Of a stretch of 64,000 bases of DNA, positions 29,956 to 63,484 are shown piece after piece (within the stretch, counting starts at the first letter, position 1; every line of letters begins with the position of its first letter). The stretch covers positions 310,001 through 374,000 of the forward strand of contig QHVT01000003.1 of assembly GCA_003223645.1 (NCBI GenBank), written 5' to 3'. Made by a program: the position numbers and the translations under genes. The notes under the pieces are model-generated. The model worked only from the letters and a program-made list of their open reading frames with translations. It made no database searches and was not told the DNA's origin. Source of the DNA: Acidobacteriota bacterium. GTDB lineage: Bacteria > Acidobacteriota > Thermoanaerobaculia > Gp7-AA8.

Positions 29956-30026
29956 GTGGAGCGGCGCCCGCTTCGGGCGCCGGGTTCTCGCGGGGAATCG
30001 GCGGCCGAGGGCGGCCGCCGCTCCAC
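29956..30026. repeat. REPIN-like paired palindrome, family B, copy 1
   Basis: GTGGAG then a GC-rich stem, TCTCGCG-type spacer, and the inverted arm ending CGCTCCAC. The GGAG tetranucleotide precedes each arm. Confidence 0.8.
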
Positions 30027-30061: not shown

Positions 30062-30122
30062 GTGGAGCGGCGGCCGCCCCCGGCCCGCCGATAACCGGCG
30101 CCCGAGGCGGGCGCCGCTCCAC
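30062..30122. repeat. REPIN-like paired palindrome, family B, copy 2
   Basis: A second copy 35 bp after the first, GTGGAGCGGCGGCCG ... GGGCGCCGCTCCAC. It ends 14 bp before the M48 peptidase ATG, so it includes or borders that gene's leader; the AGGAGG ribosome site lies just after it (30123-30128). Confidence 0.8.
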
Positions 30123-33710: not shown

Positions 33711-35201
33711 TCAGATGACGGGTTTGCCGCGCGCGGTGCGTTTTTTCTGCGGCGCCGGCAAGGGCTCGCCCGTGATGTCCACCGGCGCGTAGAACGACCG
33801 CCCGCGCACGTTCTCGTCCACTTTCAATCCGTACTGCAGCGGCGGGAACGCGCGCTGTTCGCAGTCGAGGCGCTCGCACAAACGACACGTGGTGCCGATC
33901 GGGACGGCGGCGTCGAGATTGTCGAGGTCGTAGCCCTCGGCGTAGACGATCTTGCGCGCGTCGTTCACCGGGCAGCCGATGCCGACGGCCATCAGCGCGT
34001 CACCCGATGAATAGCCGTAGGTCTTGCGGATGGTGCGCGCGACGCAAAAGTACGCGGTGCCGTCCGGCATGCGCGAGAGCTGGGTGCGGATGCGGCCCGG
34101 TGTGAGAAACGCGGCGTGCACGTCCCACCGCGGGCAGCTTCCGGAGAAGCGGGCGAAGCGGATTCCCGTGCCGCTGAAGCGCTTGGAGATGTTGCCGGCG
34201 ATGTCGACGCGCACGAAGTGAAACGGCACGCCGCCCGCGCCCGGCTTGCGCAGCGTGGTGAGTCGATGGCAGACCTGTTCCCAACTCGCGGTGTAGTGGT
34301 GCTGCAGCAGCTCGATGTCGTAGCGCACGTCCACGGCGAGCTTGAAGAAGTCGTCGTACGGCATCAGCAGCGCGCCGGCGAAATAGTTCGCGAGCGCGAC
34401 GCGGCAGAGGCGTACCGACTCCGGCGTCGTGAGATTTTTCTGCGAGCGCGCGATCACGGCATCGATCGCGTACGCGCCGTCGAGCAGGCCGAGCTGATGC
34501 GCGACCTGGAATTGCCGGCTCCACGGCGGGAGTACCTCGGAGAGATACAGCGTGCGCGATTCCGGATCGTAGCGGCGGATGAGACCGCGGTCGCGCACCA
34601 CCGGCATGAGCACGACGCGAACGCCGTAGCGCGCGTCGAGGTAGCGGACGAGCGAGCGATACATGTCGGAGCGATCGAGCGACGCGCGGCGCGTGATGTC
34701 TTCCGCGGCGGACTCGAGGTCGGGAAAGTAATTGAGGTTTTCCTGGATCACGTCCGACGCTTCCTCGGACGGCAGATGCGCGGGATCGAGTCCGTGAAAC
34801 GCGCGCCCGTCATACACCTGCGATGACAGGTCGCGCATCGACTGAACCTGCTCTTTGTATTTCGTGAACAGCGCGATGACCGCGCGCGAGGCGGCACCGT
34901 TCTCCGCCATCTCGCGCACGTCGTTCGTCGTCACGGCGTACTCCTCGAAGAGCGGATCGGCGAACACTTCCTGCAGGCTGTCGGCGAGCCGCACCTGGCT
35001 GTCGTCCGCGAACGCCTGCAGGTCGACGTGGAGGATCTGCGCGAGCCGCACCAGCAGATGCGCCGGCAGCGGACGCTGATTGTGCTCGATGAGATTGAGA
35101 TACGACGGAGAGATCTGCAGCTTTTCGGCGAGCTGGACCTGCGTGAGCTGCTCGCGGCGGCGAAACCCGCGCACTTTGGCGCCGAGTTTGGATTGTGGCA
35201 T
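33711..35201 (-). CDS. XRE-family regulator, RamB/ScfR (short-chain fatty acid) type
   Basis: 496 residues. N-terminal HTH (FRRREQLTQVQLAEKLQISP then SYLNLIEHNQRPL), a central IrrE/ImmA-like region lacking the full HExxH zinc motif (QVAHQLGL stands in its place), and a C-terminal domain with Cys-rich motif (CRLCERLDCEQRAFPPLQYG). Proteins of this layout (RamB, MccR, ScfR) control acetate, glyoxylate or methylcitrate genes according to acyl-CoA state. It is divergent from aceB-aceA, which makes it their likely regulator. ATG 35199-35201 is set by the conserved helix start. Confidence 0.88.
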   Translation of the reverse strand: MPQSKLGAKVRGFRRREQLTQVQLAEKLQISPSYLNLIEHNQRPLPAHLLVRLAQILHVDLQAFADDSQVRLADSLQEVFADPLFEEYAVTTNDVREMAENGAASRAVIALFTKYKEQVQSMRDLSSQVYDGRAFHGLDPAHLPSEEASDVIQENLNYFPDLESAAEDITRRASLDRSDMYRSLVRYLDARYGVRVVLMPVVRDRGLIRRYDPESRTLYLSEVLPPWSRQFQVAHQLGLLDGAYAIDAVIARSQKNLTTPESVRLCRVALANYFAGALLMPYDDFFKLAVDVRYDIELLQHHYTASWEQVCHRLTTLRKPGAGGVPFHFVRVDIAGNISKRFSGTGIRFARFSGSCPRWDVHAAFLTPGRIRTQLSRMPDGTAYFCVARTIRKTYGYSSGDALMAVGIGCPVNDARKIVYAEGYDLDNLDAAVPIGTTCRLCERLDCEQRAFPPLQYGLKVDENVRGRSFYAPVDITGEPLPAPQKKRTARGKPVI

Positions 35202-35214
35202 GGCAGTGGTTCCT

Positions 35215-35296
35215 CGGTTGCGCGGTCCCGCGGTTGCGAGGGTGGTTGGGAGCCGCGTGACCGCGCAACTGAGCGACCGCGCAACCGCGTAACCGA
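35215..35296. repeat. CGCGTAACCGCGCGACC-type repeat, family G
   Basis: GGTTGCGCGGTC / CGGTTGCG on the left, GACCGCGCAACTGAGCGACC and GCGCAACCGCGTAACC on the right: a loose inverted repeat. Relatives lie at 45836-45903 and 61440-61490. It occupies half of the regulator/aceB intergenic region. Confidence 0.6.
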
Positions 35297-35410: not shown

Positions 35411-37090
35411 ATGACGATCGTGATTGATACCGACATCGACGTGCGCGGCGAAGTGCAGCCGGAGTGGGACGAGATCCTCTCCGACGACGCGCTTGCGTTC
35501 GTGGCGATGTTGCACAAGGAGTTCAATCCGCGGCGCGAGGAGCTGTTGCGCGCGCGCGAGGATCGCAAGCTGCGCCTCGATGCCGGCGAGCAACCCGACT
35601 TCCGGCCGGAGACGCGCGCGATTCGCGAGGGCGAATGGACGGTCGCACCGACTCCGCATGACCTCGTCGACCGCCGCGTCGAGATCACCGGTCCGGTCGA
35701 CCGGAAGATGATCATCAATGCCCTCAACTCCGGCGCGAACGTCTTCATGGCCGACTTCGAAGACGCCAACTCGCCGACGTGGTTCAACTGCATCGACGGA
35801 CACGTCAACTTGCGCGATGCCGTGCGCCGCACGATCTCGTTCGATAGCGGTGCGAAGCACTACAAGTTGAATGACAAGACCGCGACGCTGGTCGTCCGTC
35901 CGCGCGGATGGCATCTCGTCGAAGAGCACGTCTACGTAGACGGACATCCAGTCAGCGCGAGCCTCTTCGACTTCGCGCTCTACTTCTTTCACAACGCGAA
36001 AGAGCTGATCGCGCGCGGCAGCGGTCCGTACTTTTACCTGCCGAAGATGGAGTCGCACCTCGAGGCGCGTCTCTGGAACGACGTCTTCGTGCGCGCGCAG
36101 GAGGAGCTCGGCATTCCGGCCGGAACGATCCGCGCGACGGTGCTGATCGAGACGATCCTCGCCGCGTTCGAGATGCACGAGATCCTCTTCGAGCTGCGCG
36201 AGCACTCGTCGGGTCTCAACTGCGGACGCTGGGACTACATCTTCTCCTTCATCAAGAAATTCAGAGCGCGGCGCGACTTCGTGATGCCGGACCGCGCGTC
36301 GGTGACGATGGACAAGGCGTTCCTCGCCGCGTACGTCGACCTGTTGATTCAGACCTGCCATCGCCGCGGTGTGCACGCGATGGGAGGAATGGCCGCGCAG
36401 ATTCCGATCAAGGACGACGCGGCCGCGAACGAGATCGCATTCAAGAAAGTCGAAGCCGACAAGCTGCGCGAAGTGCGCGCGGGACACGACGGCACGTGGG
36501 TTGCGCATCCCGCGCTCGTGGCCGTCGCGAAGCGCGTGTTCGACGAGTACATGCCGCAACAGAATCAGATCGATCGCAAGCGTGACGACGTCAATGTCAC
36601 GCCGGCCGAGTTGATCGCGATTCCCGACGGCTTCGTGAGCGAGAAAGGAATCCGCCACAACATCAGCGTCGGAATCCAATACCTCGCGGCGTGGCTCGGC
36701 GGCAGCGGCGCGGTGCCGCTCTACAACCTCATGGAAGACGCGGCGACGGCGGAGATCTCGCGCACGCAGCTGTGGCAATGGGTGCAGCACGGCGCGAAGA
36801 CGGACGCCGGCGAGCTGGTGACGCCGTCGCTGTATCGGCGCATTCGTGATGAAGAGCTGCAGTCGATCGGTACTCATCCGCACGTCGATCGCGCGGCGCG
36901 GATCTTCGACGAACTGATTCTCAATCCCGAGCTCGCCGATTTTCTGACGATTCCCGCATACGCAGACTTACTTGAAATCGAATCCAGTGGAGCGGCGGCC
37001 GCTTCGGCCGCCGACCCTCGCGAGAATCCGGCGGCCGAGAGCGGCCGCCGCTCCACCACTCAAGGAGCGAACAAACGATGGCCAGACTGA
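35411..37090 (+). CDS. aceB: Malate synthase A
   Basis: 559 residues. Condenses glyoxylate with acetyl-CoA to malate. Landmarks: [20 protein letters not shown] (active-site region), [43 protein letters not shown], and the C-terminal [11 protein letters not shown] where homologues end. Here ~34 more residues follow, translated from a family B repeat ([20 protein letters not shown]), and the stop lies inside the downstream aceA gene (13-bp overlap). The enzyme core is complete. It is the first gene of the glyoxylate shunt operon, divergent from the RamB-like regulator. Confidence 0.95.
36987..37056. repeat. REPIN-like paired palindrome, family B, in the 3' end of aceB
   Basis: GTGGAGCGGCGGCCGC ... 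CTCGCGAGA ... GCGGCCGCCGCTCCAC. Read through in frame by malate synthase; the aceA ribosome site AAGGAG starts six bases after it. Confidence 0.85.
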
Positions 37091-38361
37091 AAGAGGCGCG
37101 TGACCCGAAATCGATCGAGAAGGATTGGGACCGCAATCCGCGATGGGAAGGCATCACCCGCGAGTACAGCGCGGATGACGTGCTGCGCCTGCGCGGCTCG
37201 ATCGACATCCGGTACACACTCGCGGAGATGGGCGCGGAGCGCTTGTGGCAGCTCCTCACCACCGAGCCGTTCGTGAACTCCCTCGGCGCGCTGACCGGCA
37301 ATCAGGCGATTCAGCAGGTCCGCGCCGGACTCAAGGCGATTTATCTCAGCGGCTGGCAGGTCGCGGCCGATGCGAACCTCGCCGGTCACATGTATCCCGA
37401 TCAGAGTCTCTATCCCTCGAATTCCGTGCCGCAGGTCGTGAAGCGGATCAATCAGGCGCTGCAGCGAGCCGATCAGATCGATCACATGGAAGGGCGCAGC
37501 GGAACGTACTGGTTCGCGCCGATCATCGCCGACGCGGAAGCCGGCTTCGGCGGCGCGCTGAACGCGTTCGAGCTGATGAAGCTGATGATCGAGGCCGGCG
37601 CGGCCGCGGTCCACTTCGAAGATCAACTCGCCTCCGAGAAAAAGTGCGGACACCTCGGCGGCAAGGTTCTCGTTCCCACGTCGCAGTTCATCCGCACGCT
37701 CGTCTCCGCGCGTCTCGCGTCGGACGTGATGGGCGTCGGCACGCTGCTCATCGCGCGCACCGACGCGTGCAGCGCGACGCTCCTCACGAGCGACGTCGAT
37801 GAGCGCGATCAGCAGTTCGTCACCGGCGAGCGCACGCCGGAAGGGTTCTATCGCCTGCGCCACGGACTGGAGACCGCGGTCGCGCGCGCGGTTGCGTACG
37901 CGCCGTACGCGGACGTGTTGTGGTGCGAGACGTCGACGCCGGACATCGACGAAGCCCGGCGTTTCGCCGAAGGCGTGCACGCGCAATATCCCGGCAAGCT
38001 GCTCGCGTACAACTGCTCGCCATCGTTCAACTGGGCGAAGAAGCTCGACGCGCAGCAGATCGCGTCGTTCCAGCGCGAGCTCGGCGCGATGGGCTACAAG
38101 TTCCAGTTCGTCACGCTGGCCGGCTTCCACGCGCTCAACCATTCGATGTTCGAGCTCGCGCGGCAATACCGCGACGAAGGCATGACCGCGTACTCGCGCC
38201 TGCAGCAGGCCGAGTTTGCAGCAGAAGAGAACGGATACACGGCGACGCGCCACCAGCGCGAAGTCGGCACCGGCTATTTCGACGAAGTCGCAAAGATCGT
38301 CAGCGCGGGAGAGTCGTCGACGACGGCACTCGAGGGCTCGACCGAGGCGGCACAGTTTTGA
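37078..38361 (+). CDS. aceA: Isocitrate lyase
   Basis: 427 residues. Cleaves isocitrate to glyoxylate and succinate, the entry step of the glyoxylate shunt. The active-site signature [10 protein letters not shown] is present (~residues 184-193), with [23 protein letters not shown] and [15 protein letters not shown] lies 10 bp before the ATG, between the repeat and the gene. The start lies inside the extended end of aceB. With malate synthase and the RamB-like regulator it allows growth on acetate or fatty acids. Confidence 0.97.
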
Positions 38362-38523: not shown

Positions 38524-38595
38524 GTGGAGCGGCGGCCGCCCTCGGCCGCCGGCCTCTCGCGAGAAATCGGCGGCCGGGGGCGGCCGCCGCTCCAC
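38524..38595. repeat. REPIN-like paired palindrome, family B
   Basis: GTGGAGCGGCGGCCGCCC / CTCTCGCGAGA / GGGCGGCCGCCGCTCCAC: a clean copy with GGAG before each arm. It lies between the small acidic gene and the secreted protein gene, ending 20 bp before the latter's ATG. Confidence 0.88.
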
Positions 38596-45835: not shown

Positions 45836-45903
45836 GCCGTTGCGCAGTCGCTCGGTTGCGCGGTTACGCAGTGTTTTGCCGCGCGACCGCGTAACTGCGT
45901 AAC
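45836..45903. repeat. Family G repeat
   Basis: CGTTGCGCAGTCGCTCGGTTGCGCGGTTACGCAG on the left, GCGACCGCGTAACTGCGTAACC on the right, like 35215-35296. It ends at the stop codon of the F420-type reductase gene. Confidence 0.55.
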
Positions 45904-50404: not shown

Positions 50405-50475
50405 GTGGAGCGGCGGCCGCTTCGGCCGCCGACCTCTCGCGAGAAACCGGCGGCCGAGAGCGGCCGCCGCTCCAC
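50405..50475. repeat. REPIN-like paired palindrome, family B
   Basis: GTGGAGCGGCGGCCGCTTCG ... CTCTCGCGAGA ... GCGGCCGCCGCTCCAC, 12 bp after the M13 peptidase stop. Confidence 0.85.
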
Positions 50476-62646: not shown

Positions 62647-62716
62647 GTGGAGCGGCGGGCTCTTAGCCCGCCGCTTTCTCGCGAGCGCCTCGGCGGGCTA
62701 AGAGCCCGCCGCTCCA
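62647..62716. repeat. REPIN-like paired palindrome, family B variant
   Basis: GTGGAGCGGCGGGCTCTTAG ... CTAAGAGCCCGCCGCTCCAC; each arm is a GGCGGGCT-CTT-AGCCCGCC hairpin with GGAG before it. It lies exactly between the convergent msrBA and methyltransferase genes and could serve as a two-way terminator. Confidence 0.85.
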
Positions 62717-63484
62717 CTATTTCCGGAACAGCAAAACGTCGCGGCTCAGCGTGACGTCCATCGCTTCGGCGTTCTCATGACCGCGGCGGTACGACGACGA
62801 CATCACGTCGCGAACCGCATCGGCATCGAGATGCGCGACGTGGCGGACGTTGAAGTGCCGCACGAGCTCGAAGTGCGAAGCGAACATCTCGATCGTCCGT
62901 TCGACGCGATCGCGTTCCATGCCGCGCAGCTCGACGAGATCGTCCGCGCCGGCGATCGCGACGAGGAGCGTGCCGCCCGGCGCGAGCACGCGGCGAAACT
63001 CCGGTGGATTCAAACGCGCGGTGATAGACGTGACGGCGCGAAACGCATGGTCCTCGTACGGAATGAAGCGATCGGCGTTGGCGACGATCCACGTGCAATC
63101 GCGATGGCGGCGCGCCGCGAGATCGATCGCGATCGCGGAGATGTCGACGCCTTGCGCGTCGACGCCGTACGCGCGCTTGAACGCGGCGAGATGATGTCCC
63201 TCGCCGCACCCGACGTCGAGCAGCGCGTCATCCGAGGAAAGCGGCAGCGCCTCGACGATCGCACGCACGAGCGGCTCCGCGTGGCCCGCATCGAGAAATC
63301 TGCGGCGCGCCGCGATCGCGTCGCGTGTATCGCCCGGATTTTTTGAGCGGCGATCCTGCGGCTGCAGCAGATTGATGTAGCCGCTGCGTGCAACGTCGTA
63401 CGTGTGGTTGTTCGCGCAGACAAACGTGCGCTCGCGCTTTGCGAGAGGTTGGCGGCACGTCGGGATCGGACAGATGAGGCGCAT
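62717..63484 (-). CDS. RlmA-type 23S rRNA (guanine) methyltransferase
   Basis: 255 residues from ATG 63482-63484. N-terminal zinc ribbon (CPIPTCRQPL, CANNHTYDVARSGYINLLQP), the RlmA-specific start, then a SAM domain (LLDVGCGEGHHLAAF, GVDISAIAIDLAARRH, ITARLNPPEFRRVLAPGG). It methylates a guanine (745/748 type) in helix 35 of 23S rRNA. There is no obvious ribosome site; tandem 8-bp repeats start ~38 bp upstream. Confidence 0.88.
   Translation of the reverse strand: MRLICPIPTCRQPLAKRERTFVCANNHTYDVARSGYINLLQPQDRRSKNPGDTRDAIAARRRFLDAGHAEPLVRAIVEALPLSSDDALLDVGCGEGHHLAAFKRAYGVDAQGVDISAIAIDLAARRHRDCTWIVANADRFIPYEDHAFRAVTSITARLNPPEFRRVLAPGGTLLVAIAGADDLVELRGMERDRVERTIEMFASHFELVRHFNVRHVAHLDADAVRDVMSSSYRRGHENAEAMDVTLSRDVLLFRK

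Follow-up and report, generated by a model that had tools for sequence, protein, structure and literature searches.

The aceB–aceA locus lies within a 64-kb window, meaning the whole stretch of DNA that was analysed, in a draft genome of 6.38 Mb and 51 contigs (hereafter G000). The two genes encode malate synthase A and isocitrate lyase, and a REPIN-type palindromic element sits at their junction, where the following features can be placed:

35411..37090, plus strand: aceB, malate synthase A, an extended open reading frame of 559 aa (TIGR01344, Pfam)
36987..37056, no strand assigned: REPIN-type palindromic element with a 70-nt core and arms GTGGAGCGGCGGCCGCT, an inverted repeat of a dispersed family that folds as a hairpin and corresponds to aceB residues 526–549
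37057..37090, plus strand: the final 10 tail codons and the present aceB stop TGA (37088–37090), from the translation
37062..37067, plus strand: AAGGAG, probably the Shine–Dalgarno sequence of aceA, 10 nt 5' of its ATG and 5 nt 3' of the element
37078..38361, plus strand: aceA, isocitrate lyase, 427 aa (NF011645, 783 bits, cut-off 562)
37078..37090, plus strand: overlap of aceB and aceA, 13 nt in different frames, from the ORF coordinates

An NCBIfam profile search matched the aceB product to TIGR01344 with 811 bits over residues 22–520, placing the end of homology at residue 520, and Pfam recognised the MS_N, MS_TIM-barrel and MS_C domains. The arms of the element (36987–37003 and 37040–37056) are 17 nt long, 100% complementary and separated by a 36-nt spacer. 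The initial annotation had assigned some 34 extra residues to the element and placed the stop inside aceA; the tail does comprise 34 residues and the stop does lie 13 nt into aceA, but the REPIN core encodes only 24 of them (526–549), the last 10 (550–559) being encoded by the sequence between the element and aceA and by the first bases of aceA. In an AlphaFold model built from 25 sequences (mean pLDDT 89.8), residues 528–559 scored below 50; as modelled, malate synthase is ordered up to residue 527 and its tail is disordered, probably forming a loose appendage. At the level of the open reading frame, the reading of the REPIN as a malate synthase tail is real.

Upstream of aceB, a divergent RamB-like regulator of acetate metabolism adjoins the gene pair (33711–35201, minus strand; NF038139, 413 bits, below the cut-off of 700), with ScfRs, IrrE-like and HTH families in Pfam. 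A second type of repeat (GGTTGCGCGGT/ACCGCGCAACC) occurs between this regulator and aceB at 35217–35290, and also near 45839–45900 and 61463; its 11-mer had 16 exact matches on both strands of a 433-kb sample of the genome, compared with one for the reversed control.

The palindrome at the aceB end belongs to a large family. Searching G000 with a 16-nt arm, allowing up to one mismatch and using the reversed pattern as a control, gave 505 matches versus 21, which, together with the inverted repeat and the frame at 35411–37090, bears out the earlier claim that a REPIN-type element is read as an extension of malate synthase overlapping aceA. Five further paired-arm copies were placed in the window:

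29956..30026, no strand assigned: REPIN copy with paired arms, intergenic
30062..30122, no strand assigned: REPIN copy with paired arms, intergenic
38524..38595, no strand assigned: REPIN copy with paired arms, intergenic
50405..50475, no strand assigned: REPIN copy, intergenic, 12 nt 3' of a called gene and, by eye, closely resembling the aceB copy
62647..62717, no strand assigned: REPIN copy; its end base doubles as the final base of the stop codon of a minus-strand gene (62717–63484)

One gene for a RAYT (REP-associated tyrosine transposase) was found in G000 (NF047646, 103 bits, cut-off 80), with TnpAREP as its best solved chain (PDB 4er8, E 3e-4). It is accompanied by four REPIN copies, one before it, one at the end of its own ORF and two after it. 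By its sequence, the GTGG element has the features of a REPIN/RAYT system, namely a paired inverted hairpin, a high dispersed copy number (hundreds, as for the inverted REP pairs described in the available part of PMC3116915) and a RAYT gene among the copies, and its GTGG start resembles the GI 16-mer of Pseudomonas fluorescens SBW25 presented in the same part of that paper. The presence of a RAYT is not by itself predictive of the GTGG element, since RAYT-family matches were obtained in 17 of the 18 genomes searched; G001, of the same genus as G000, gave none at E 0.001. No consistent target-site duplication was seen when lengths of 1–5 nt were looked for.

The GTGG arm was abundant in one of the 17 family members searched, G006 (180 matches versus 4 in the control), which belongs to another genus, whereas in the genus-mate G001 it did not exceed the control (4 versus 33), a contrast in arm counts hinting at horizontal spread or loss. 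In passing, we observed that the RAYT ORF (L122:4684–5190) ends in an in-frame REPIN at residues 140–163, the NF047646 match ending at residue 133, and that four REPINs stand in tandem at 175-nt spacing at L151:2495–3091. A RAYT gene of G010 (L233) is flanked at either end by paired repeats of the GTAG type, and the stretch around the best RAYT of G015 (L231) contains none of that type.

The placement of copies relative to genes was assessed in a non-random sample of 433 kb, made up of 40 stretches around the first-listed copies plus the window, with genes called by a simple custom method based on codon usage that misplaced starts in at least three cases. After exclusion of 66 single arms, 67 paired elements were counted, called initially as 43 intergenic, 18 internal to genes, three at 3' ends and three at 5' ends. 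Those in L124, L126 and L134 were reassigned by eye to the intergenic class, the real start likely lying 3' of the element; L128:7166 was moved from the 5'-end class to the internal one and L121:2425 was kept as uncertain. Curation thus left 17 elements internal and in frame, three C-terminal tails, 46 intergenic elements and one uncertain; L136 and L155 each hold two overlapping calls, all four intergenic, so the 67 calls represent 65 distinct sites. The tails belong to aceB, the RAYT itself and a membrane protein, and the in-frame hosts include TrpF, a Uup-like ABC-F ATPase, an NtrC-like regulator, a Ser/Thr kinase, a PilT-family ATPase and an amino-acid ABC transporter protein. A Pfam family was found for 15 of the 20 host proteins submitted, two of them below cut-off; among the names taken from NCBIfam, the Uup and NtrC matches fell below their cut-offs and the PilT match above.

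Elements of this family are nearly always open: whichever of the six frames is read, between 61 and 65 of the 67 lack stops. Their core lengths are skewed, although the tests were picked after the data had been seen: among cores of 69–73 nt, those of 70 nt made up 7 of 11 inside genes and 5 of 32 between them (Fisher p 0.005), those of 72 nt 0 of 11 and 11 of 32 (p 0.04), and, at all lengths, a length of 1 modulo 3 was found for 10 of 17 internal versus 12 of 46 intergenic elements (p 0.02). This is the skew that would arise if copies persisted within genes only when they keep the frame; a simple 72-nt rule does not accommodate the four internal copies whose cores measure 71 nt. The 20 of 67 sampled REPINs lying in coding frames look unusually common for a known type of parasitism.

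We further searched four relatives for 13 of the host genes (the search covered all internal hosts except four of the 17: both L119 genes, L128:7166 and L151). An alignment on both sides of the insertion was achieved for 10 of the 13, the REPIN peptide being absent from all aligned relatives; L125, L127 and L133 yielded no two-sided alignment in the four relatives. In these 10 genes, the insertion sites are loops, linkers or tails that vary in length. In net terms, the hosts were often lengthened by less than the element encodes (TrpF, which also shows a net gain against solved homologues, by 12 to 16 residues, the ABC-F protein by 2 to 9 and L129 by 3–7), and for L122:2481 one relative was 5 aa longer than the host. 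Insertion accompanied by local loss, or later change of a freely varying linker, therefore has to be allowed for, and on these alignments plain insertion is not a sufficient account.

The reading we favour, with a probability of about 0.82, is that a copy of a RAYT-associated REPIN entered the last aceB codons in frame and was tolerated as a tail, and that the tight junction with aceA was kept by this event, not created by it. The REPIN would have been mobilised by the RAYT of G000. The GC-rich hairpin of the family contains few stops in any frame, and its common 70-nt core, extended by a single base at either end, makes 72 nt, or 24 codons, allowing entry without a change of frame. Because of these two properties, a copy that lands in a linker, loop or tail can undergo translation and be tolerated, whereas copies that break the frame would presumably be purged. 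In aceB, the disordered tail would leave the enzyme core untouched and may be neutral, and the tight junction would be preserved by ribosomes that continue through the hairpin and terminate shortly after the start of aceA, where coupling may take place.

Tails derived from repeats are not confined to G000. In G015, the aceB tail is a GTAG-tagged REPIN (171 matches versus 0 in the control), the reading frame of which continues into an ATGA overlap with aceA, and in G005 it is an inverted repeat of a GATCTCT type (150 versus 9), where the extension stops inside the repeat and a gap of 130 nt follows. Dispersal was tested for only four tails, palindromic by eye; the remaining candidate, that of G009 (EEAQASAAGSGR), was rejected as a repeat, with 6 matches versus 9 for the control in G009, and is not dispersed. 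Three unrelated dispersed repeats were thus found in the aceB tails of three of 11 junctions (G000, G015 and G005) of this family of genomes, which named records place in Thermoanaerobaculia, with G000 included in the count. The GTAG-tagged repeat gave 24 arm matches at 21 sites in 20 stretches of G015, 13 of the 21 sites lying in called genes, two of which (L192 and L203) are likely spurious; 7 of ten host genes submitted to Pfam had a family, and L198, L200 and L203 had none. For the G005 repeat, 24 of the 27 blocks in 20 stretches lay outside called genes, the other three overlapping aceB and two short, low-scoring ORFs. This difference between G015 and G005 fits the pattern of the Neisseria Correia elements, of which, according to the review PMC2229807, a stop-free kind is fused to genes and a stop-bearing kind lies between them.

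Such recurrence could mean that insertion favours the end of aceB, or that this end is selected to bear an added tail, and that unrelated palindromes have repeatedly been caught there. Each of the three repeats is abundant in its own genome, and a precedent exists in the recB gene of two Xanthomonas species, where different REPs occupy about the same site (PMC3733652, as excerpted). Rough odds of at least two further cases among 10 relatives are ~4e-4 if 0.3% of genes have a tail repeat, a rate guessed from 3/67 tails in G000 and 2/21 in G015 with assumed totals of genes and elements, and ~0.03 at a rate of 3%, as for a permissive junction. The sample is small, however, and was examined because of the first case, one of the four tails failed, and the tail varies so much among relatives that it may be merely permissive. 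We regard a preferred or selected aceB tail as unlikely and the recurrence as suggestive only. A more specific version is that the aceB 3' end is a recurrent capture site at which the GTGG REPIN, the GTAG REPIN and the GATCTCT-type repeat independently became tails in three genera, the two REPIN cases keeping the aceA stop/start overlap; this appears quite unlikely and, if true, would imply that coupled operon junctions select for repeats transparent to ribosomes.

The hairpin might also act mainly as an RNA element, with a role in attenuation or in the stability of the transcript between the two genes, its translation being incidental. RNA folding of positions 36950–37110 gave −75.5 kcal/mol with a z score of −5.7, beating all 200 shuffles, and a gene 3' end is found within 20 nt of 21 of the 43 elements called intergenic. 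A translating ribosome would, however, be expected to melt the hairpin here, and the Rfam search returned only matches below the gathering scores of the families, so that a chiefly RNA-based role seems decidedly unlikely. The AAGGAG motif before aceA is unpaired in the centroid fold and partly paired in the lowest-energy fold.

In the initial annotation, the overlap was attributed to the repeat and thought to couple aceA translation to aceB. We compared this junction in 10 relatives of the family in which aceB and aceA were found adjacent (in L016 the aceA start was extrapolated, and in L014 and L015 it was read by eye; in G006, aceA was not found in the stretch L025 beside its aceB). The two genes overlap or lie within 2 nt of each other in 6 of the 10, one of which, L015, has a repeat of its own, the distances in the others being 11, 37, 47 and 130 nt. 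In the same-genus relative L007, which lacks the element, the gap is 2 nt; compared with L007, the reading frame 3' of the element is unchanged, and a stop in the short stretch between the Shine–Dalgarno sequence and the ATG is missing in the window, a loss that the initial annotation dated to the insertion and that may be a separate change. Recruitment of the REPIN to create or strengthen translational coupling is very improbable: the 13-nt overlap, the Shine–Dalgarno-like AAGGAG just 3' of the hairpin and the ATGA stop/start overlap that likewise ends the repeat-bearing G015 junction would suit it, but tight or overlapping junctions occur in five of the eight relatives in whose tails no dispersed repeat was found, the G005 repeat leaves a gap of 130 nt, and the same element occurs within many individual proteins, for which coupling is irrelevant. 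Since relatives show the tight junction without the element, it was apparently kept, not created, by read-through, and a repeat-made overlap or coupling is not supported by these comparisons.

That aceB truly stops before the element, owing to a sequencing or assembly error, is extremely improbable: the hairpin is GC-rich and the assembly a draft, but further in-frame copies occur in the same genome, and an assembly frameshift, one of the conditions named at the outset as refuting the extension, is unlikely because the aceB frame has the codon usage of a coding sequence in the 300 nt upstream of the element and, judged by eye, the codons CAA GGA GC. 3' of it share their reading frame with L007.

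Set against known systems, the G000 population shares the extragenic majority of REPIN/RAYT systems (46/67), but far less strictly than SBW25, where only 14 out of 1,067 of the commonest 16-mers overlap genes (PMC3116915, in the part available), compared with the 20 of 67 sampled elements in coding frames here. In the excerpt of PMC3733652, intragenic dimers of GTAG/CGTC REPs encode 20–30 aa, slightly more than 10% of them at coding ends, and Acidobacteria are mentioned just for tyrosine transposases; the tag here is GTGG, unlike in those repeats, the GTAG tag at the hairpin foot being absent from the window element and present in that of G015. A search of the plasmid collection with 36980–37060 gave zero matches. 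Literature searches on REPINs and palindromic or miniature elements of Acidobacteria, intragenic REPs of Opitutus and translational coupling of aceA did not return this family or repeats in aceB tails among the matches listed, with subscription journals mostly outside their scope.

A behavioural parallel is offered by the Rickettsia palindromic elements (RPEs), reportedly described by Ogata et al. in 2000. PMC2229807 and PMC3767692 describe RPEs as palindromes of about 100–150 bp, translated in frame within conserved proteins, in exposed regions, and tolerated. The likeness lies in the 17 internal and three tail elements in frame among the 67 and in the absence of the peptide from relatives of 10 genes, here at the level of open frames only; it is one of behaviour, and the G000 elements are mostly 70–72 nt long, accompanied by a RAYT gene and found in Acidobacteriota. 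Palindromic repeats in frame are thus already known, as intragenic REPs and RPEs, and the G000 REPINs are a heavy new case, in which, judged by open frames, ordinary enzymes, regulators and transporters of an Acidobacteriota lineage frequently incorporate copies from a REPIN population. The sample's 17 naturally occurring in-frame insertions, of which 10 have aligned relatives without the insert, could be used to gauge which loops tolerate inserts, and the set allows one to ask if selection on a selfish element favours a lack of stops and a length of 72 nt, and what effects such elements have on operon junctions.

A minor observation concerns the element ends. For six of the 43 copies called intergenic, including the one ending at 62717, the end base of the element is also the final stop-codon base of the adjoining gene, which is reminiscent of the GTAG REPs, whose ends, in the excerpted part of PMC3733652, supply the TAG stops of genes.
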